A stretch of 45,026 bases of DNA from Acidimicrobiia bacterium (lineage in GTDB: Bacteria > Actinomycetota > Acidimicrobiia > Spongiisociales > Spongiisociaceae), in assembly GCA_009841075.1 (NCBI GenBank), contig VXMP01000013.1, forward strand, positions 1-45,026, written 5' to 3'. Made by a program: the position numbers and the translations under genes. The notes beneath the pieces were generated by a model, which saw only the letters and a program-made list of their open reading frames with translations, was not told where the DNA came from and searched no databases. This document shows, in pieces, positions 986 through 22,817 of this stretch (the stretch's first letter is position 1; each line of letters starts with the position of its first letter).

Positions 986-2823
986 CGACCGTCGTCACCA
1001 AACCCGATCTGTCCGATAAGAGGAAACCGGTCGACGCCTGGGCAACCGTCAAACGCGGGCTCAGCCTGTCGCCCGAGCTCCGGAGGGGTATAGCCCTTAC
1101 CTTCCTGTTGGCCGGGGTAGCCACCGCCGGTCGAATCATCATTCCGGTCGCCATCCAACAGATCCTCGACGGCGGGCTCACCGAGGCAGGCGCTGACCTG
1201 GGTTTCGTGGCCCGAATGGTGGTTCTGTCGCTGGTGGCGGTGGGGGTCACCGCCTTTTCAACCGGGGTGATGCACCTACGGCTGGCTGTTATGACCGAGG
1301 TCTCCCTGTCCAACCTGCGGGTGCGGGCTTTCCGGCATATCCATGATCTTTCCATGCTTCATCAGGCGGCGGAACAGCGGGGAGTGCTGGTAGCCCGGGT
1401 TACCTCCGACATCGACCAGATCAGCCGGTTCATGCAGTGGGCCGGACTGATGATCATCGTCAACGGTGGTCAAGCCCTCCTGGCCATGGTGGTGATGGGG
1501 GTCTACTCCTGGCAGCTTTTCCTCACGGTGATGGCGTTGCTGCCGATCATCCTTTACTCGATTCGTTGGTTCCAGAAACGTTTAGCCACCGCCTATCTGG
1601 TGGTTCGGGAAAGGGTGGGCCAATTGATGGGGGCACTGGCCGAGGCGGTGGCCGGAGCACCCGTTATCCGAGCCTATGGCATCGAAGATCGGGTGCGGGC
1701 CGACCTGGGTGAGGTCATCGAAAGGCATCGAGCGGCCGCGGTTCGAACCGGCGGTTTTACCTCCGGTTTCTCCGGCGTGAGCGAGCTTCTGACCTCCACC
1801 GTAACGGCCGCCGTGTTGGTGGTGGGCACCCTCCTGGCGGTCGGTGGAGACACTTCGATCGGAACGGTCGTGGCCTTCCTATTCCTGGTGCAGCTGATGA
1901 TTATGCCGCTTCAGCTGTTCGGGGAGGCCATCAACGAGGCACAGAGCGCCGTGGCCGGATGGCAGAGGGTTTTGGATGTGCTGGACACTCCTCCTGATGT
2001 GGCGGATCCGGGAGATGACGGCCTTGATCTTCCCGTCGGCCCCCTGGAGGTACGTTTCGAGGGGGTGACCTTCCGCTATCCCAAGCCCGGCGAGAACGCC
2101 CGTCAAGCCACCGGCACCACCGCTCTGGAAGGGGTGAGCGTCCGGCTCGACCCCCGCTCTCACGTGGCGGTGGTGGGAGAAACCGGCTCGGGAAAGACCA
2201 CCTTTGCCAAATTGGCTACTCGGCTTATGGACACTTCGGACGGCGTGGTGTTGCTAGGAGGAATAGAGGTGTCGAGGGTGAGGTTTTCATCGCTTCGTCA
2301 TCGAGTGGTCATGGTTCCGCAGGACGGAATGCTTTTCAGGGGCTCCATCCTGGAGAACGTTCAGATGGGGAAACCGGGCATAAGCCGGGAAGGGGTCGAG
2401 CAATCCTTCTTCGATCTGGGGTTGACCGAATGGCTGGCCGAGCTCCCGAAAGGGCTGGACACACCGGTCGGAGAGCGGGGTTCGTCGCTGTCGGTGGGTG
2501 AACGCCAGCTGGTTACCTTGGTTCGAGCGGCCCTGGCCGACCCGGATCTGCTGGTTCTGGACGAGGCCACTTCCGCCGTCGATCCCGCCACCGAAGCCCG
2601 CATATCCAACGCCCTGGAGAACCTCACCAAGGGACGCACGGTCATCACCATCGCCCATCGCCTGTCCTCTGCCGAAGCCGCCCACCGAATCTTGGTGTTC
2701 GACCAGGGGCGGATGGTTCAGGACGGTCCCCACCGTCAACTTCGGGAGGAACCAGGCGTCTACCGGCATCTATATCAGGCCTGGGAACAAGGTGCCCTCA
2801 ACCGGGCCTCCGTCCTTCCCTAG
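982..2823 (+). CDS. ABC exporter subunit with canonical catalytic residues
   Basis: Full-length half-transporter of 613 residues: six predicted membrane helices in about residues 30-330, then an ATPase domain. Walker A GETGSGKTT is at 399-407, Walker B LLVLDE at 523-528 with catalytic E528, and the H-loop His is H559 (IAHR). Its own signature is LSVGE (503-507) instead of LSGGQ. This complements the upstream subunit: its intact Walker site would pair with the partner's LSGGQ, while the partner's weak Walker site would pair with this LSVGE. That is the expected pattern of a heterodimer with one active and one degenerate ATP site. The GTG start overlaps the preceding stop. Export from the cytoplasm is inferred from the family; the substrate is unknown. 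Confidence 0.95.
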   Translation: MTTVVTKPDLSDKRKPVDAWATVKRGLSLSPELRRGIALTFLLAGVATAGRIIIPVAIQQILDGGLTEAGADLGFVARMVVLSLVAVGVTAFSTGVMHLRLAVMTEVSLSNLRVRAFRHIHDLSMLHQAAEQRGVLVARVTSDIDQISRFMQWAGLMIIVNGGQALLAMVVMGVYSWQLFLTVMALLPIILYSIRWFQKRLATAYLVVRERVGQLMGALAEAVAGAPVIRAYGIEDRVRADLGEVIERHRAAAVRTGGFTSGFSGVSELLTSTVTAAVLVVGTLLAVGGDTSIGTVVAFLFLVQLMIMPLQLFGEAINEAQSAVAGWQRVLDVLDTPPDVADPGDDGLDLPVGPLEVRFEGVTFRYPKPGENARQATGTTALEGVSVRLDPRSHVAVVGETGSGKTTFAKLATRLMDTSDGVVLLGGIEVSRVRFSSLRHRVVMVPQDGMLFRGSILENVQMGKPGISREGVEQSFFDLGLTEWLAELPKGLDTPVGERGSSLSVGERQLVTLVRAALADPDLLVLDEATSAVDPATEARISNALENLTKGRTVITIAHRLSSAEAAHRILVFDQGRMVQDGPHRQLREEPGVYRHLYQAWEQGALNRASVLP

Positions 2824-14161: not shown

Positions 14162-14253
14162 GGAGGCGAACGAGCGCCTGGTGGGCTCCCTGGTCTTCAA
14201 AACCAGTGGGGGTACGAGTGTGCCCCGGCGGGTTCGATTCCCGTCCGCCTCCG
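14162..14253 (+). tRNA. selC: tRNA-Sec, anticodon TCA
   Basis: A 92-base tRNA for selenocysteine, reading UGA. The acceptor stem GGAGGCG (14162-14168) pairs with CGCCTCC (14246-14252), and the discriminator is G, as in other tRNA-Sec. The anticodon arm CTGGT-CTTCAAA-ACCAG carries TCA. The long variable arm GGGGTAC-GAGT-GTGCCCC forms a perfect 7-bp hairpin counting one G:T pair. The T arm has GGTTCGATTCC. CCA is not encoded. It requires SelA, SelB and SelD, which are not in this window. An AT-rich block and the McrBC genes follow directly. Confidence 0.95.
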
Positions 14254-14425: not shown

Positions 14426-16606
14426 ATGACTCCAAGTCTTGAAACTACGGAGGAGCGACCGGCATGGTTCGTGGGAGCGGCGTTCGGGGGTGCCGACGAC
14501 CAGACAGACCGTTTTGTTCGAGAAGGTATTTGGGAGCACGGTTTCGAGGACCGTTGGATTGAGGACGTTCAATCTATTCGGGTGGGTGATCGCATTGCCA
14601 TCAAGTCCGCTTATACAAAGAAGAACGACTTGCCTTTCGACAATCGCGGGCAGTCGGTGTCAGTGATGGCGATCAAGGCTGTTGGTGAGGTGACCGGTAA
14701 CCCAGGTGACGGACAACGCCTCAAAGTGGATTGGACACCGGTTGAGCCGCGCCGCGAATGGTACTTCTATACCCATAGGCCCACAGTGTGGAGAGTGATC
14801 CCACGCAACTTTAAGTCCAAAGGTCTGATCGACTTCGCGTTCGAGGGACAAGACCAGGACATCGACAGGTTCCGCAACAGTCCTTACTGGGAAGCCAGGT
14901 TTGGTGACCAACCAGATTACCGCTTCTCTTGGACGTCGTTTTACACAGACTTCGCCGACAGGTTGTTTACCTTCCGTGATGATCGGTCGGCGCTGCTTGA
15001 CTCGATCTACCGGCTGCCCGAAGACCAGGTCAGCTACCTGACCGACCGATTTGCTGACGGCACATCCGGCCGGCTACGTGACATCTGCCCCTTCACAACG
15101 ATGGGAACCTTCCATAGACACAAGCGTGACACACGCAGGAAGATTGCCCGCGAGTTGGCCGGGTTTTTGGGTATGGAGGAAGTTGAAGGGGATCCTTTGA
15201 GGTCTTTGGATGGAATACCGATCCTGGATCCCCGCAATAGTTGGTTCTTCCCATACGAACGCGAGCGCGATGATGATCACATTGATGCGCTTTGGCAAGT
15301 GTTCGCCGACGCGTTGCAATACGCCGATAACGAGGATGAGACCAGTCGAGCTTCGCTCATTCGCTCGTTTGATGACGCTATATCACGCAAGAGAGTCGGT
15401 CGGAGGCTCACATTCGGTCTTTACTGGATCAGGCCGCATACCTTCGTGTCGTTGGACAAGTACGCTTCCACGTTCATCAGTGAGCTGGGTGTATACGTTC
15501 CGAAAGGTAAGCCGGATGGGGAAGCGTATCTGGACTTGTGCGACCGGTTGAGGTTGATGTTCAACGACGAGAGTATGCCGGTTCACTCCTTACCTCATTT
15601 GTCTGCAGTGGCATGGGATCCGGAGAATGAGACCGGGTGGGACACCGAAACCAAAAACGGTCAAGGCCCTCTGCAGACCAAAGGAAAGCCACCTCGCCCA
15701 GTAAAGGACGAGCCGCCCTATTCAGTGGAGAACATCGTCAAGGAGGGATGCTTCCTGGAGCGAGACAGGCTGGTGATGATCCTGGATCGATGGCGGGTCA
15801 AGAAGAACCTGATCCTTCAAGGTCCGCCGGGTACCGGCAAGACCTGGCTGGCCAAGAAGCTGGCGTTTGCGCTCATCGGCAGTCGTTCGCCGAGTCGGGT
15901 GCGCCCGTTGCAGTTCCACCCGAGCCTGTCCTATGAGGACTTCGTCAGGGGCTGGCGGCCCAGTGGAAACACTGACAACCCTCTCAAGCTGATGGACGGG
16001 CCGCTCCTGATGGCGGTCGAAGATGCCGGAAAGGAACCTACACAGGACTTTGTGGTGGTGGTCGAAGAGATCAACCGGGGCAACCCTGCCCAGATCTTCG
16101 GGGAGATGCTTACTCTGCTGGAGGCCGACAAGCGCACTCCCGAAGAGGCGTTGACGCTGAGCTATCCCCGACACCCCGCCGAACGGGTGCACGTTCCCGA
16201 CAATCTCTATGTGGTCGGCACCATGAACATCGCCGACCGGTCGCTGGCCCTGGTTGATCTCGCCCTCCGCCGCCGATTCGCTTTCGTCGATCTGGAACCA
16301 AACTTCGGGGAATTTTGGCACCGCTGGGTCAGCGAACAAAGCGGCTTGGGTCGGGACTTCCTTGACGGCATCAAACAGCGACTGACAGACTTGAACAAGA
16401 ACATATCCGAAGACGACCTGCTCGGGCCACAGTTCCGAGTCGGACACAGCGTCGTGACACCAAGCGATGAGATTACGAACGGCGTCCAATGGTTCACGGA
16501 GGTGGTGGAAACCGAGATCGGACCGCTCTTGGACGAGTACTGGTTCGACACCCCCGACAAGGCTCGCTCCGCCAAAGAAGAGCTGCTCAAAGGGCTCGAC
16601 AGTTGA
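14426..16606 (+). CDS. mcrB: EVE-domain McrB-type AAA+ restriction GTPase
   Basis: Motor and recognition subunit of a modification-dependent McrBC restriction system, 726 residues. The first 125 residues (from AWFVGAAFGG through VGEVTGNPGDGQRLKVDW) have the pattern of an EVE/PUA-like domain that recognises modified cytosine. A long middle region of unknown fold precedes the AAA+ core: Walker A GPPGTGKT at 466-473, Walker B VVVVEEINRGN at about 543-553, and the McrB hallmark MNIADRSLALVDLALRRRF starting at 600. AGGAGG eight bases before the ATG fixes the start. mcrC overlaps its stop. The target modification (5mC, 5hmC or other) is not readable from the sequence. Confidence 0.92.
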   Translation: MTPSLETTEERPAWFVGAAFGGADDQTDRFVREGIWEHGFEDRWIEDVQSIRVGDRIAIKSAYTKKNDLPFDNRGQSVSVMAIKAVGEVTGNPGDGQRLKVDWTPVEPRREWYFYTHRPTVWRVIPRNFKSKGLIDFAFEGQDQDIDRFRNSPYWEARFGDQPDYRFSWTSFYTDFADRLFTFRDDRSALLDSIYRLPEDQVSYLTDRFADGTSGRLRDICPFTTMGTFHRHKRDTRRKIARELAGFLGMEEVEGDPLRSLDGIPILDPRNSWFFPYERERDDDHIDALWQVFADALQYADNEDETSRASLIRSFDDAISRKRVGRRLTFGLYWIRPHTFVSLDKYASTFISELGVYVPKGKPDGEAYLDLCDRLRLMFNDESMPVHSLPHLSAVAWDPENETGWDTETKNGQGPLQTKGKPPRPVKDEPPYSVENIVKEGCFLERDRLVMILDRWRVKKNLILQGPPGTGKTWLAKKLAFALIGSRSPSRVRPLQFHPSLSYEDFVRGWRPSGNTDNPLKLMDGPLLMAVEDAGKEPTQDFVVVVEEINRGNPAQIFGEMLTLLEADKRTPEEALTLSYPRHPAERVHVPDNLYVVGTMNIADRSLALVDLALRRRFAFVDLEPNFGEFWHRWVSEQSGLGRDFLDGIKQRLTDLNKNISEDDLLGPQFRVGHSVVTPSDEITNGVQWFTEVVETEIGPLLDEYWFDTPDKARSAKEELLKGLDS

Positions 16607-17721
16607 CACCACCACCGGGGATGATCGGCAAGATCCCCATCCGGAATATCTGGCTGTTGATGCTGTATGCATCGCGGCTCTATCGGGAACTCCCGAGCCG
16701 GAGGACCCGCGGCATCGAAGAAAGCCCCGACAGACTTCCCGATCTGGTCGCAGAGATCCTGACCCGTGCCGCCCAACGTCGGATCCGGCGCAACCTGACT
16801 CTCGAATTCCGCCGCAGCCAAGCTGACCTGACTCGTGTACGGGGACGCATCGACATCCTCCGCACTGAGCGCTACGGCCTGTTGCGGAAGGGCAAGATCG
16901 CCTGCTCCTTCGAAGAACTAACCACCGATACGCCACGGAATCGGCTCGTGAAAGCAGCCCTCACCAAACTGTGTTCCAGTGTTAGAGAGGAAGATTTAGC
17001 CAGGCGGTGCCGCAGTCTGGCCGCGGCTTTGGGCCGAGCGGGTGTGAGCGACGAGACCTCCACCGGCATACGGTCAAGAAGCCTCCGCGCCACGGGCAGG
17101 GTCAACGCCGAGGACCGCCAGATGCTCGCCGCCGCGGAGTTGGCCCTCAGGCTGAGTCTGCCCACCGAAGATCCGGGTAGTGCTCACCTGCCCGCGCCCG
17201 ACCGGGACGCGGTATGGGCGCGACAATTATTCGAGTACGCGGTGGCGGGCTTCTACGACACGGTGCTCGGCCCCCGCGGGTGGTCGGTCAAACGAGGCAA
17301 AAGGATCCACTGGCAGATCAAGGAGCAAAGCAAGACTTCGAGAATCGACGACATCCTGCCTCAGATGCAAACCGACATCACCTTGGAAGGCCCTCCAACC
17401 GATGCGCACGATCACAGGCATCGCATAGTCATCGACACCAAGTTCACCGGCATCCTCAAGCCGGGCCAATACAAGACGCAAGTCCTGAAGAGCGGCTACA
17501 TCTACCAGATATACGCCTACCTGAGATCCCAAGAGCGCGACAGCGACCCCGGATCGCTCGATTCGTCTGGTCTGCTTCTACATCCCTCCGTCGGCGAGGA
17601 CGTCCACGAATCCGCGATGATCCAAGGCCACCGAATCCACTTCGCCACGGTGGACCTCGCTGCTGAAAGCACCGCCATCCGAGCACGGCTCATCGCAATA
17701 GCCGACAAAGTCGCGGCATAG
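16603..17721 (+). CDS. mcrC: McrC endonuclease subunit
   Basis: Nuclease partner of McrB. The N-terminal KIPIRNIWLLMLYAS is the family hallmark, followed by a helical adaptor region; the C-terminal PD-(D/E)XK core has D258 (QTDITLE) and D278-T-K280 (VIDTKF), then a conserved QIYAYL helix. The TTG at 16603 overlaps the mcrB stop as TTGA and has AAAGGG about nine bases upstream, giving 372 residues; an ATG six codons later (16621) is the alternative but has no well-placed ribosome binding site. The pair forms a two-gene operon. DNA between two modified sites would be cut after translocation, as known for McrBC. Confidence 0.9.
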   Translation: MTPPPGMIGKIPIRNIWLLMLYASRLYRELPSRRTRGIEESPDRLPDLVAEILTRAAQRRIRRNLTLEFRRSQADLTRVRGRIDILRTERYGLLRKGKIACSFEELTTDTPRNRLVKAALTKLCSSVREEDLARRCRSLAAALGRAGVSDETSTGIRSRSLRATGRVNAEDRQMLAAAELALRLSLPTEDPGSAHLPAPDRDAVWARQLFEYAVAGFYDTVLGPRGWSVKRGKRIHWQIKEQSKTSRIDDILPQMQTDITLEGPPTDAHDHRHRIVIDTKFTGILKPGQYKTQVLKSGYIYQIYAYLRSQERDSDPGSLDSSGLLLHPSVGEDVHESAMIQGHRIHFATVDLAAESTAIRARLIAIADKVAA

Positions 17722-18028: not shown

Positions 18029-18409
18029 ATGGATTCGGTGCTGACGGTTAGCGGACTGATCGCCAATCCCGGGCAATACGACCTGGCCGACCTGTCCAGA
18101 TTGGAACCAGGTGCCCAAGATGAACCCGGCATGGTCAGATTGGAGCGGATTATCGAGGCCTCCCGACCTGATGCCGAAGCTGATCACGTCACCGCTGTAA
18201 GCGCCGATGGCTCCTATTCTGCCTCCATCCCGCTGGCCGAAGCGACCCGACTGGGCGAGGTTCATGTCCACGAAGAGCAAGGCGAAACCTCTTTACGTCT
18301 GCTGGTACCCGGCGGGGCCACCCTGTGCTGGAACGTCAAAAGCTTGGGCCTGCTACGGGTAACCGCCGGGCCGGAACCCGACAGCCTACCCGAGGTTCTT
18401 ACCCATTAG
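18029..18409 (+). CDS. Small protein resembling part of a molybdopterin-binding oxidoreductase domain
   Basis: A 126-residue protein. The opening LTVSGLIANPGQYDLADLSRLEP resembles the start of sulfite-oxidase-type molybdopterin domains, in which a short strand is followed by a helix introduced by 'sLddL'. VSADGSYSASIPLAEA is like their 'DGY..si.l.ea' segment. The cofactor-ligating Cys region is not evident, so it may be a shortened, non-catalytic relative. This is an inference from pattern, without a search. The ATG at 18029 has only a weak upstream site. It ends 14 bases before the HTH-membrane gene and is probably co-transcribed with it. Confidence 0.7.
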   Translation: MDSVLTVSGLIANPGQYDLADLSRLEPGAQDEPGMVRLERIIEASRPDAEADHVTAVSADGSYSASIPLAEATRLGEVHVHEEQGETSLRLLVPGGATLCWNVKSLGLLRVTAGPEPDSLPEVLTH

Positions 18410-18423
18410 GAGGGTGCCGGACA

Positions 18424-19038
18424 ATGTCCTCTGACGAGGGGATGGCCTTTGCCCGCCTGTTCGCCAAACGTAGGGCGGAGCTGAACGTTTCGACCGTGGA
18501 TATCGCCGATCTAACCAAACGTCCTATTCAGGTGGTGGTCGGATGGGAACAGGGTTCCTCTGTCCCCCGAGATGACGAGTTGGCTGTCCTCTCCGAGGCC
18601 TTGCGCCTGCCGATTTCTTTGATGGAGGAAGCCCTGCGGCGGGTTGGCGAACACGAAAAGCCGGTGGGCTCTGCCGGGTCGGACTCCCTTAGTGATGAGG
18701 CCCTGTATGACGTCGAAATAGTTCCCCTTGAGGAAAGCGTTGAGGATCCTGTTATCGATAGCCTGGATGTGGAACCCACCGGATCGGCCTGGTCGAAACT
18801 CAAGCTGAGAGCCGGTCGGGTGTTCGGACCAAGAGACCGGAGCACGCTTGCCCAGGAACGGGATCCGGCCCGGAGCTCCTCATATATGGAAGATCCGGAG
18901 CAACAGATCACCTATCGGCTCCGCATGGTTTTCTCCGCCGCCGGTATCGCCATCCTGGTTCTGGTGCTTCGCTGGGCGTTGGGCGGTTTCTGGGCCGCCG
19001 TAACCGATCTGTGGAGTTCCCTCACCGGCGTTTTATAG
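18424..19038 (+). CDS. HTH (XRE-like) protein with C-terminal membrane anchor
   Basis: A 204-residue protein. Residues 5-70 look like an XRE-type helix-turn-helix: MAFARLFAKRRAELNVSTVDIADLTKRPIQVVVGWEQGSSVPRDDELAVLSEAL. An acidic linker follows, and near the C terminus a hydrophobic stretch MVFSAAGIAILVLVLRWALGG makes one membrane helix, with a second amphipathic or membrane-skimming piece after it. It is thus a putative membrane-tethered DNA-binding or cytoskeletal-type protein; RodZ has a similar layout but a different periplasmic part. The ATG at 18424 is set by AGGAGGG about nine bases upstream; the in-frame opening further upstream lies inside the previous gene. Its target is unknown. 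Confidence 0.78.
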   Translation: MSSDEGMAFARLFAKRRAELNVSTVDIADLTKRPIQVVVGWEQGSSVPRDDELAVLSEALRLPISLMEEALRRVGEHEKPVGSAGSDSLSDEALYDVEIVPLEESVEDPVIDSLDVEPTGSAWSKLKLRAGRVFGPRDRSTLAQERDPARSSSYMEDPEQQITYRLRMVFSAAGIAILVLVLRWALGGFWAAVTDLWSSLTGVL

Positions 19039-19126
19039 AACCCCATCGACCGGCGGGTTCCGGTACTACCCAAAAGGTTCTCCAGTCGCTATATTGTCTT
19101 CTACCAGAGAAAGGAGGTGATCCGAA

Positions 19127-19171
19127 TTGTTAGACTGTTCCTGTAGGACTCTGGAGGTGGCCGAGCGCTAG
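19127..19171 (+). CDS. 14-residue peptide with Cys-Ser-Cys, leader-like
   Basis: A TTG start three bases after an unusually long Shine-Dalgarno opens 14 codons: (M)LDCSCRTLEVAER, then TAG. The stop lies in the loop of the following hairpin, as in attenuation leaders. Two Cys codons within three codons suggest Cys sensing, but the nearby cysteine synthase gene is on the opposite strand, so control of it in cis by attenuation is not possible. Expression is an inference. Confidence 0.4.
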   Translation: MLDCSCRTLEVAER

Positions 19172-19353
19172 CGGCCACGGGTCGCTTCCGATGAACCAAC
19201 CCAACCTAAGGGGGTTCGTCGGGCTAGGTAGCGACTCCAACTCGGACCACCGAGCCTTTCCGTCCGTATGTTGGTCCTCATGCGGCATTCCGTGGGGCTA
19301 AGGAGCCCACAATGAAGTGCGGATAGGGCACAATATAAGCACACAAGACGTTT

Positions 19354-19389
19354 GTCCGGGGCTTCCAAACGGAGGCCCCGGACTTTTTT
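19354..19389 (+). terminator. Strong rho-independent terminator
   Basis: The arms 19354-19366 and 19371-19383 make a 13-bp stem (one G:T pair) with an AAAC loop, followed by six T. The T run is on the + strand only, so it ends the structured RNA unit. It lies 30 bases beyond the 3' end of the convergent cysteine synthase gene. Confidence 0.9.
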
Positions 19390-19418: not shown

Positions 19419-20366
19419 TCAGCGGAGGCCGTGTTCGGTAAGCCAGTCCTGGTTCCAGATCTTGGTGAGATAACCCCGGCCCGAATCGGGTAGTAAGACC
19501 ACCACCAGACGATCCGGGTCCGCTTCGGCTACCTCCAAGGCCGCGTGGACCGCCATCCCCCCGGATCCTCCGATCAAGAGCCCCTCCTGCTCTGCAACCC
19601 GTCTGGCCATGTCGAAGGACTGCTGGTCGTCGACCATGATGTAACGGTCGACGATATCCTGATCCAAGGTTTCCGGCCAAAAGTCTTCGCCGACCCCCTC
19701 CACCCGGTACTGATGGATGTCCTCCTCTCGGGCGGCCGTATAGATGGAGCCCTCGGGATCGGCACCCACCAGAGCGACGGATGGTTTGCGCTCCCTCAGG
19801 TACTTTCCCGTACCGGAAATGGTCCCGCCGGTGCCCACCCCGGCTACGAACGCGTCTATCTCTCCGTTGGTTTGTTCCCAAAGCTCCGGGCCGGTGGTTA
19901 GATAATGGGCTTGCGGGTTGTAAGGGTTGGAATACTGATCGGGGCTGTAGGCACCGTCTATTTCCTCGGTGAGACGTCGGGCGACCCCGTAATAGGAATC
20001 TTCATGATCGGGAGTGAGGTTGGTGGGCGTGACGATCACTTCGGCACCATAGGCCTCCAACAAGCGGATTTTTTCGGTGGCCACCTTGTCGGGAACCGTA
20101 CAGATAACCCGATATCCTCGCACCGCCCCCACCATGGCCAGGCCTGCACCCGTGTTGCCGGAAGTGGGTTCGATGATGGTGCCGCCCGGCCGTAGTGATC
20201 CGGCCCGCTCGGCCTGATCGACCATGTTGACGGCGATCCGTTCCTTCACCGATCCGGCCGGATTCAGATAATCCAGCTTGGCTACCAGGTTGCCGGGCGG
20301 GTGGATCCGCGCCAGTCGGACCAACGGAGTCCATCCGATTGCCTGCAGAGCGTTTTCGTGTATCAC
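19419..20366 (-). CDS. PLP-dependent cysteine synthase / cystathionine beta-synthase family enzyme
   Basis: A 315-residue fold-type II PLP enzyme. The cofactor Lys is K41 (NPAGSVKERIA), the substrate loop TSGNTG is near residue 70, and the phosphate loop is GVGTGGTISG. The C-terminal VVVLLPDSGRGYLTKIWNQDWL is closer to cystathionine beta-synthases than to CysK, but no CBS domains follow, so it may make cystathionine from homocysteine and serine, or cysteine from O-acetylserine. The GTG at 20366 is chosen: GAGGA lies 12 bases upstream and the family sequence starts there, whereas the open frame further upstream overlaps the preceding gene. It sits 22 bases after the YyaL-type gene, likely in the same operon. 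Confidence 0.88.
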   Translation of the reverse strand: MIHENALQAIGWTPLVRLARIHPPGNLVAKLDYLNPAGSVKERIAVNMVDQAERAGSLRPGGTIIEPTSGNTGAGLAMVGAVRGYRVICTVPDKVATEKIRLLEAYGAEVIVTPTNLTPDHEDSYYGVARRLTEEIDGAYSPDQYSNPYNPQAHYLTTGPELWEQTNGEIDAFVAGVGTGGTISGTGKYLRERKPSVALVGADPEGSIYTAAREEDIHQYRVEGVGEDFWPETLDQDIVDRYIMVDDQQSFDMARRVAEQEGLLIGGSGGMAVHAALEVAEADPDRLVVVLLPDSGRGYLTKIWNQDWLTEHGLR

Positions 20367-20388
20367 GTTGTGGTCTTGTCCTCTCGTG

Positions 20389-22431
20389 TCAAAGCAGATC
20401 CTCCAACTCTTCACAGGATTCGACCGGCAGGCGGCATACCCCGTTCCGGCATACATACCCCACCGTCCGATCCTGGCGATACCGTCCCGAGAGGATGGGT
20501 ATCTGTTCGTTTGGTCCGGTCGACGGTGCCAACACCAGGTCGGGGCGATAGTCCTGGTTTAGGCGACCGGTCCACTCCAAGGCGTCCGGACCGCAGAGCG
20601 CCACTTCCTTGAAGTCCATGAGCGAGGTGGCCAACACCGCCAGAAGATGCCCGACCGCGCTCGGAGCAGCCTCCGCCAGCCGATCCCCGGCCCGGACGAT
20701 TCTTTCAAACTGCTCGTGAAATCGATACTCTCCGGTGAGCCGACCCATCAGAAAGAAGCATTCCGCCGCCAAGGAAGCTCCCGAAGCGCTGGGGTTGTCC
20801 TGCTGATCGACGGGCCGCACCACCAAATCCGAGCCGGCATCGTCGGCGACCGCGAAAACCACCCCGTCCGTACTATCGAAATGATCTGTCAACCGGTCGA
20901 CCAGCCCCTGGGCGGCGATAAACCACTCTGCTTCTCCGGTAGCTTGGTAGAGCTCCAATAAACCCAGCGCATAAGCGGCATGGTCGTCCAAGAACCCGGA
21001 TATAGGGGCGAGGCCGTTGCTCCAAACCCGGGCCAGGCGTCCGTCCGGTTGTCGCATTTCCGACAGGATGAACCGGGCGTTGGCACGGGCGGCCTCCAGG
21101 TAAGTATCCATCCCCAGCACGCTTCCGGCCACGGCCAGGGAGCGCAACGCCAAGCCGTTCCAGACGGTTATAACCTTGTGATCCAAACCGGGCCGGATCC
21201 GAGTCGCCTGTCGGGCTCGAAGCCTATGTTTGGCCCGCCCGACAATCTCCCCCACTTCTTCGACAGTGACGTCGAACCACTCCGACAGGGCCTCGGGCGT
21301 TGAGGCCTGGTGCAAAACGTTGGCACCCTCGAAGTTCCCGTCCGGTGACACCCCGAAGTAGGCGCTTACCACCGGATAAAGCTCTTCCCCGACCACTTGG
21401 CGAAACTCGTCGCTCGTGAAGACGTAGAACTTGCCTTCCACCCCTTCGGAGTCGGCGTCCTCGGCGGCGTAGAAACCCCCCTCGGGATGACGAAGGTCCC
21501 GCATCATATAGTCCAAGGTGTCGACAGCCACCTCCCTATAAACGGGATTCTTGGTGATCTGCCAGGCTCGGACGTAGAGACGGGCCAGGTCGGCGTTGTC
21601 GTACAACATCTTCTCGAAGTGGGGTACCAGCCAGACCCGATCCACCGAGTAGCGGGCGAATCCACCGCCCAGATGGTCTCGAATGCCGCCCTGAGCCATC
21701 CTGGTCAGGGTGGTGGTCAGCATGGCGGGGGCTTTGGTCGCCCATGATCTACCGCTGATTCGGGCCAGGAACTCCAGAATCGGTGCCTGAGGGAACTTGG
21801 GTGCCCCTCCGAAGCCGCCGTTTTGCAGGTCGAATTGGTGGGCCAGGGATTCGTAGGCCGATTTCGCCCGCTCAAGGCCGGGCAGTTCCTCGGCAGACCT
21901 AACCGCCATTCCCAGTGCCCGAGTCAGCTGATCGGCCTGTTTTGTGACCTCGCCCCGCCGATTTTGCCAGGCGTGATTAATCGCTTCCAACACCCTTCTG
22001 AAGCCGGGCATTCCGTGGCGATCAACCTCAGGAAAGTAGGTTCCTGCGAAGAAGGGACGGCCTTCGTGGTCGAGAAACACCGTCATCGGCCATCCTCCCC
22101 GCCCGGTCATGGTGTGGACGGCGTCCATATATATCGAGTCGACATCGGGCCGTTCCTCCCGATCGACCTTGACCGACACAAAATGCTCGTTCATGTAACG
22201 GGCGGTCTCCTGGTTGTGGAAGGATTCCCGCTCCATGACGTGGCACCAGTGACAGGTTGAATAGCCCACCGAGAGCAGTATGGGCCGATCCGAGGCCTGA
22301 GCCGCTGCGAAGGCTTCCTCTCCCCACGGATACCAGTCGACCGGATTGTCGCGATGCTGGATCAGGTAGGGCGACATACCGTCTAGGCTCATATTTCTCA
22401 GCAGAGACCGACGACTCACGGCTGCATCCAT
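20389..22431 (-). CDS. YyaL-type protein: thioredoxin-like domain plus (alpha/alpha)6 barrel
   Basis: A 680-residue member of the DUF255/YyaL family (related to SPATA20). The N-terminal thioredoxin-like domain begins [22 protein letters not shown] and has the CxxC pair in [23 protein letters not shown] and GTYFP follow. The rest is an alpha-helical barrel like glycoside-processing enzymes, with [12 protein letters not shown] and [11 protein letters not shown], and ends with [12 protein letters not shown]. All family blocks are present and in order, so it looks intact. The biochemical role of the family is not established. The start could be the ATG at 22431 or an internal ATG 13 codons later. 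Followed closely by the PLP synthase gene. Confidence 0.9.
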
Positions 22432-22817
22432 GACCGACTATGTTAAAGGGTTGGTTAGGTTGGATTTCACCGTCGAGTCGGGCGGTTGAAGCCGCCGATT
22501 TGGCCATCTCCGGAAAAATCGGGAAGAAAACCGAGGGAAAATTGTTCTGAAAGGTATGCCGGTTGGATTTCAGGGGTACATCGTGCCCGTGTTTAGCGCC
22601 GATACTTCCGGTATATTTTGGAGACATCCACACCTCGGGAGGGTTGACGTAGGATTCCCGGCGGTGGATCAAGAAAGCAGGTTGCCGAAAAATGTCCCTC
22701 CACCATGGAGTAATGAGGTTTGAGTAAACTTGGCATCGGGCTGTCGCCATCCGTCCGTTTTCGCCAGGGGTTCACGGCAACCCTTATGCCGGTAGTTGAA
22801 AAGTGGGAGAGCACCGT
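22432..22817. other. Divergent intergenic region before the sigma factor gene
   Basis: About 386 bases with no gene seen. It must carry the promoters of the YyaL-type gene (leftward) and the sigma gene (rightward). TTGACG occurs at about 22645 on the + strand, but no good -10 at the right distance was found. At 22683-22697 GCCGAAAAATGTCCC resembles the GTTGAAAAATGTCC motif found at 6585 and 37732, next to a near-palindrome CTCCA-CCA-TGGAG (22698-22710). These may be traces of an insertion element. Confidence 0.4.

Follow-up and report, generated by a model that had tools for sequence, protein, structure and literature searches.

A free-standing Ms_IGR-5-like RNA in an Acidimicrobiia genome, with a position-fixed mini-ORF folded into its structure

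The window, a contig stretch of 45,026 nucleotides from an Acidimicrobiia bacterium, carries an RNA element that sequence comparison, with good support, identifies as a divergent homolog of Ms_IGR-5 (Rfam RF02471), a small RNA originally described from Mycobacterium smegmatis. Homology, an open reading frame, a fixed stop and covarying pairings are established from the aligned copies. In the explanation preferred here the window copy would be transcribed on its own, as an RNA of about 285 nt, and would serve as a regulatory RNA with folding gated by translation of its mini-ORF and possibly with a target in trans. A probability of about 0.5 is given to this explanation as a whole.

The element, its surroundings and its Shine-Dalgarno sequence

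The features of the element are collected in Table 1. Two neighbouring genes converge on it: an open reading frame at 18325-19038 (+), with no Pfam match, and a PALP enzyme gene of the cysteine synthase/CBS type at 19419-20456 (-). The next convincing gene on the + strand is that of a sigma factor at 22803. A preliminary description had placed here a free-standing structured RNA, not an ordinary leader, lying between convergent genes and followed by no gene before 22.8 kb. This stands. The 296-nt fold is stronger than 200 of 200 dinucleotide shuffles (z = -5.61). The 13-bp terminator stem is as described there, with TTTTTT after it, and close relatives also have G+C-rich terminators 3' of the RNA. 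Where does the transcript begin? A generic promoter scan of the window element called no promoter; relatives L002-L010 keep TATATT or TAAATT at the same distance from the RNA, and a start near 19100 is expected.

Table 1. Features of the RNA element in the window
Feature	Positions	Strand	Basis
-10-like box TATATT (putative own promoter)	19090-19095	+	by eye; relatives L002-L010
Maximal Shine-Dalgarno GAAAGGAGGTGATCC (segment a)	19109-19123	+	exact match; homolog comparison
14-codon ORF MLDCSCRTLEVAER, TTG start at 19127, TAG stop at 19169-19171	19127-19171	+	frame comparison of 91 homologs; mycobacterial footprints (PMC4974804)
AGGACU in the ORF (b'), 5' side of pseudoknot	19145-19150	+	covarying flanks
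Segment b GGUGGCCGA, 3' end of the ORF; overlaps SD-like GAGGTG at 19154-19159	19156-19164	+	compensatory changes in b:c
CGCUA, last codon and beginning of stop; 5' side of stop helix	19166-19170	+	covariation
UAGCG, 3' side of stop helix	19229-19233	+	covariation
Strand c UCGGACCACC; pairs with b, could also close the Shine-Dalgarno in this order	19242-19251	+	b:c covariation; closure predicted by forced folds only
3' hairpin CCGTATG-TTGGTCCT-CATGCGG; loop d at 19271-19278	19264-19285	+	stem covariation in the order
GGUCCU in loop d, pairs with b'	19273-19278	+	loop:ORF covariation in Actinobacteria
Intrinsic terminator: 13-bp stem 19354-19366/19371-19383, then TTTTTT	19354-19389	+	sequence; relatives

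The PALP gene lies near the RNA in many relatives of the order. Could the element be a cysteine-responsive leader of this gene, or an antisense element? Its position as convergent neighbour here and its proximity in those relatives, together with the two Cys codons of the window copy, would point that way, but PALP is encoded on the other strand, beyond a terminator, the Cys codons vary among close relatives, and copies in other classes and phyla have other neighbours; such a role is highly improbable. The Cys-Ser-Cys stretch, previously singled out as a peptide feature, is private to the window genome, close relatives reading LLDSSC, LLDSSS, LLDSSY or LLDSSH. A cysteine attenuator was rejected on similar grounds, as there is neither a co-directional biosynthetic gene downstream nor a conserved Cys run in the peptide. 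Beyond the order no shared neighbour gene was found: in mycobacteria, streptomycetes, Acidobacteria and Deltaproteobacteria the genes next to the RNA are unrelated, and control of one neighbouring gene is therefore unlikely.

Several other observations concern the neighbourhood. A selenocysteine tRNA gene (14162-14252) is found about 5 kb upstream of the window RNA and, in another family of the order (L014, 399-489), about 1 kb from the RNA there, a loose synteny. Two + strand open reading frames at 14426-17721 resemble by eye an McrB-type AAA protein and an McrC-like partner. In Bryobacterales (L102, L120, L146) the RNA lies just upstream of an apparent ribosomal protein L31 gene on the same strand, with a terminator between. 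At L029, about 1270-1375 (-), the 3' segment GACGAGTTCGCTCGTCGAAGTATCTCCGGGTCTTTCGCGTCC that follows the RNA is tandemly duplicated.

The Shine-Dalgarno segment pairs with the usual bacterial 16S 3' end, GGATCACCTCCTTTC, over 15 of 15 bases, as had been pointed out before. It has one exact copy in the window and one in the assembly, which is the same site. The 3' end of the 16S gene is missing from the source assembly; among 40 relatives, 14 have the tail GTGCGGCTGGATCACCTCCTTTC, including two from the same genus, and full 15-base complementarity to the host tail is thus very likely real. With G-U pairs allowed, 86 of 91 homologs pair at 15 of 15 positions, in a set chosen in part by this motif. 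An origin as an rRNA fragment or antisense sequence was discarded: the single assembly copy lies outside an rRNA operon and is conserved together with the structure.

Kinship with Ms_IGR-5 and distribution

To which family does the element belong? At the gathering threshold an Rfam search of the window gave zero matches. Below it, the best permissive match is Ms_IGR-5 (19.0 bits against a gathering score of 45), aligned in register over the Shine-Dalgarno, an open reading frame ending in EVAxx plus stop, and strand c. The intermediates are informative. The window element as DNA query matches 49 of 59 relatives, or 37 of 41 when good genomes alone are counted, over about 180-300 bases within its own family; in other families of the order the match shrinks to a block of Shine-Dalgarno and ORF and a block around strand c. 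Close relatives retain the TATATT-like -10 box, Shine-Dalgarno, ORF, c, 3' hairpin and terminator. In the other direction, a search of the phylum with RF02471 found matches in 30 of 149 genomes. One of these, from the same order (G015 C18:37449-37661, 9.9e-7), is the very locus recovered with the window DNA, and further copies from the order, class and phylum reach between 29 and 50 bits (L043, 49.9), running up to and past the curated threshold. The continuous scores and the shared locus argue that the window RNA is homologous to Ms_IGR-5 and falls outside the curated cut-off. The preliminary description could name no family; the element belongs, distantly and through intermediates, with Ms_IGR-5.

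This kind of RNA is already known by name and by expression, with stand-alone small RNA transcription reported in M. smegmatis, Streptomyces lividans and S. avermitilis (PMC10454040, PMC8079986, PMC8780764). The b:c stem and the stop helix are common to the window RNA and Ms_IGR-5, mycobacterial copies (L031-L033) being part of the b:c comparison. Unlike the present analysis, the Rfam alignment as printed contains neither a translated frame nor an ORF:loop pseudoknot. The Ms_IGR-5 literature found, with few subscription journals among it and hence possibly short of an existing description, assigns the RNA no function, describes neither a conserved frame nor a pseudoknot nor an occurrence in other phyla, and gives no M. 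tuberculosis name for the locus.

A pattern scan, with one genome per species, found copies in many actinobacterial genera and, accepted by inspection, in Acidobacteria, Deltaproteobacteria, Sumerlaeota, Zixibacteria, Nitrospinae, Nitrospirae, Krumholzibacteria and Planctomycetota. Loci in Zixibacteria (L113) and Acidobacteria (L070 and L128) pass the RF02471 threshold, although the L128 contig may be actinobacterial and mis-binned. R1, a covariance model constructed from 36 copies for this analysis, matches copies outside the model: L070 at 2e-17, L175 at 8e-13, L113 at 1e-12, a Bryobacterales copy (L102) at 4e-7 and a Nitrospirae copy (L131) at 2e-6, with weaker matches to the planctomycete L066 (5e-5), L083 and L117. 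The acidobacterial and deltaproteobacterial matches outside the model have the same frame, EV[ATV]xx and then a stop. R1 finds one copy per genome and, with few candidates per genome scored and the prevalences hence lower bounds, is matched in at least 27 of 60 genomes of the class, at least 87 of 217 Actinomycetota, at least 15 of 90 Acidobacteriota and at least 3 of 89 genomes of the phylum of L098. The lone match among 150 Pseudomonadota, at 8e-4, looks false.

Other candidates were set aside. Pattern matches L064, L069, L079 and L087 and the viral L180-L188 were judged to be chance, lying inside longer open frames. Two SAR86 loci (L073 and L074; R1 E = 0.002) were excluded as doubtful. In these two genomes a free-standing Shine-Dalgarno AAAGGAGGTGGTCC precedes what may be an ATT-initiated frame, ISIYLLAGITGGAF, with a terminator after it, and they may represent a gammaproteobacterial analogue.

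The alphaproteobacterial small RNA CC2171 (Rfam RF01867) resembles the window RNA in being free-standing, with GAAAGGAGGTGATCCA, a short frame and a terminator; it differs in that neither the EVAxx tail nor the b:c pairing is recognised in it. The CC2171 model reaches 18.4 bits on the window against a gathering score of 75, aligning the Shine-Dalgarno and an unrelated hairpin, and R1 recovered no alphaproteobacterial CC2171 copies among the 150 Pseudomonadota. The Shine-Dalgarno alone is shared, so that common descent is no more than a possibility; CC2171 may be a counterpart of independent origin or a very distant one. At its loci (L199-L210) the frame begins GTG-TCT (MSHCHQ.. or MSFTKRCHLAGIAR), and some genomes have two matches.

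Reading frame, peptide and pairings

The 14-codon frame of the preliminary description is present in the window and open across 91 diverse homologs. In the frame of GAG GTG, stops upstream number 1 in 846 codons, against 86 in 809 and 64 in 787 in the other frames. An ATG, GTG or TTG start within reach of the Shine-Dalgarno is open in frame in 76 of the 91 copies (1 and 4 in the other frames), and in 89 of 91 the stop comes five codons after the GAG of the in-ORF GAGGTG. The stops are mixed (TAG 59, TGA 20, TAA 10), so no single release factor is implied. Ribosome profiling found footprints on Ms_IGR-5 homologs in Mycobacterium abscessus and M. smegmatis, taken by the authors as possibly non-coding (PMC4974804). 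Translation of the mini-ORF is well supported by the frame comparison together with these footprints. Might the RNA still be a non-coding, trans-acting small RNA, with Shine-Dalgarno and frame coincidental? It is filed as a small RNA in Rfam and in the transcriptome papers, but chance is excluded by the frame counts, to the extent that related sequences allow, and this view is very unlikely to be correct.

Start codons are often weak: TTG in 40 of 91, CTG in 6, and also ATT, ATC and ACG. The very weak starts in some lineages (CTG, ATT, ATC or ACG in L040, L048, L049, L116 and others), despite a maximal Shine-Dalgarno, give the impression that slow selection of the start is tolerated or desired. 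Such starts, the second SD-like sequence GAGGTG 6 nt before the last codon and the full complementarity to the 16S tail would all suit a ribosome decoy, in which the Shine-Dalgarno captures 30S subunits or the 16S tail and the in-ORF sequence retains terminating ribosomes, thereby tuning the pool of free ribosomes, while the structure merely protects the RNA. A decoy, however, needs neither an open frame with a fixed stop nor a covarying ORF:loop pseudoknot, and would require great abundance from a single-copy gene. It is considered unlikely, though it deserves to be kept in mind.

Is the peptide itself the product? A micropeptide of 12-15 residues acting in trans, with the RNA as its structured mRNA, would account for a frame conserved over several phyla and for the EV[AT]xx tail kept across homologs. 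Differences between close copies upstream of b tell against it: at codon positions 1, 2 and 3 they number 84, 69 and 42 in the 12-residue class, with no third-position bias in the N-terminal codons, and 18, 8 and 31 in the 14-residue class, with a mild bias. The kept tail coincides with the b strand, which is invariant in nucleotides, while the last residue switches (CGC, UGC, AGC, GGC), and RNA pairing is therefore sufficient to explain it. With the tail confounded in this way, the codon-position counts do not establish purifying selection on the peptide sequence; the frame appears constrained and the peptide at most weakly so. No occurrence of the peptide strings was found in the literature. 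A trans-acting micropeptide thus seems improbable, the dual-function peptide suggested earlier is not favoured, and the peptide is probably incidental.

The segment b (GGUGRCYGN) within the ORF pairs with the downstream strand c in nearly all copies, with compensatory changes and a mean score of 21.9, against 17.6 when the downstream sequence is shuffled. RNAalifold gave no useful structure on the full 91-row alignment, owing to indels and a bulge in c, and pairs were counted on the bulged class instead. In alignment A2 the b:c helix is paired in 98.8% of cells, three pairs having double changes, and the stop helix CGCUA:UAGCG in 89%, with double changes in four of its five pairs. Over the whole structure double-change cells number 42, where shuffles give 15 and slid controls 1 to 9. 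The shuffle controls ignore relatedness, and these covariation counts are therefore not probabilities. The stop had been described as lying in a hairpin loop; close relatives and some other members of the order do have such a hairpin, GTGGCC..GGCCAC, but the stop helix with deep conservation is CGCUA:UAGCG.

A further pairing links GGAC of the ORF with GUCC, which occupies the apical loop of the hairpin that follows c (AGGACU with GGUCCU in the window). Among the 68 copies carrying both motifs, the two flanks are Watson-Crick in 38 and 36, against 16.8 and 18.9 in shuffles, none of 10000 being as high. L040 and L041, which lack GGAC, have UCGACC or UCGAUC instead, facing GGUCGA. The stem under loop d covaries within the order; no pseudoknot domain was seen in homologs outside Actinobacteria. 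The first stem of the Rfam model, a hairpin of UCC in the Shine-Dalgarno with GGA in the ORF, was rejected for want of flank covariation (19 Watson-Crick against 15.9 shuffled), and GGAC is thus assigned to the pseudoknot. Of the checks proposed earlier, both conservation in relatives and covarying stems (b:c, the stop helix, the pseudoknot and the d stem) turn out in favour of the element.

In this order strand c (CGGACCACC) is complementary both to the usual Shine-Dalgarno segment (GGUGGUCCG) and to b. Forced folds of the window core, with pseudoknots left out, give -65.1 kcal/mol for the SD-closed state and -61.4 for b:c (MFE -65.3), so that the two states are similar in computed energy, within a few kcal/mol. 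Closure is a proposal, as the Shine-Dalgarno and c vary too little for covariation to bear on it.

A proposed translation-gated RNA

How might such an RNA work? Gating by translation, the preferred explanation, is suggested by the overlap of the ORF with the pairings. A 30S subunit would load on the maximal Shine-Dalgarno and the ribosome would translate the short frame, which is folded into its own RNA through the pseudoknot, the b:c stem and the stop helix; translation would open these pairings. At the fixed stop the ribosome would cover b, releasing strand c and loop d, both candidates for contacts in trans. A terminating ribosome that covers b would explain the drift of the peptide within a frame that is kept, with its stop in place, the conserved trait being the act and position of translation. 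Six bases is the spacing of a Shine-Dalgarno to the P-site codon, and the in-ORF GAGGTG, at this distance from the last sense codon, may make use of it to retain the terminating ribosome. In this order freed c might also fold back on the Shine-Dalgarno and limit further initiation.

Alternative pairings are likewise chosen by a ribosome translating a short ORF in the ribosome-dependent attenuators (trp, cys and arrest-peptide leaders), and there a downstream gene is controlled in cis. The window transcript, in contrast, is ended by a terminator and no gene follows. Another likeness is to rnTrpL/peTrpL of Sinorhizobium meliloti, a small RNA with a short leader-like ORF and roles beyond its locus, where rnTrpL arises by attenuation of the trp operon and the peptide peTrpL acts in trans (PMC7298713); the window RNA differs in having no operon behind it and a peptide that drifts.

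More tentatively, and with somewhat less confidence than in gating itself, the copies could represent a multi-phylum class of RNA defined by a maximal Shine-Dalgarno, a mini-ORF of low content and a stop placed so that the terminating ribosome frees a defined strand, i.e. a free-standing switch acting in trans that reads the status of initiation or termination. What has been listed as a non-coding small RNA of mycobacteria has a position-fixed reading frame and an ORF:loop pseudoknot, and extends over several phyla. Were its folding gated by translation, mycobacteria, Streptomyces, Acidobacteria and others would possess a stand-alone sensor of the state of their ribosomes. Homologs are already present in the transcriptomes of M. 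smegmatis and Streptomyces, and the idea can thus be tested there at once.
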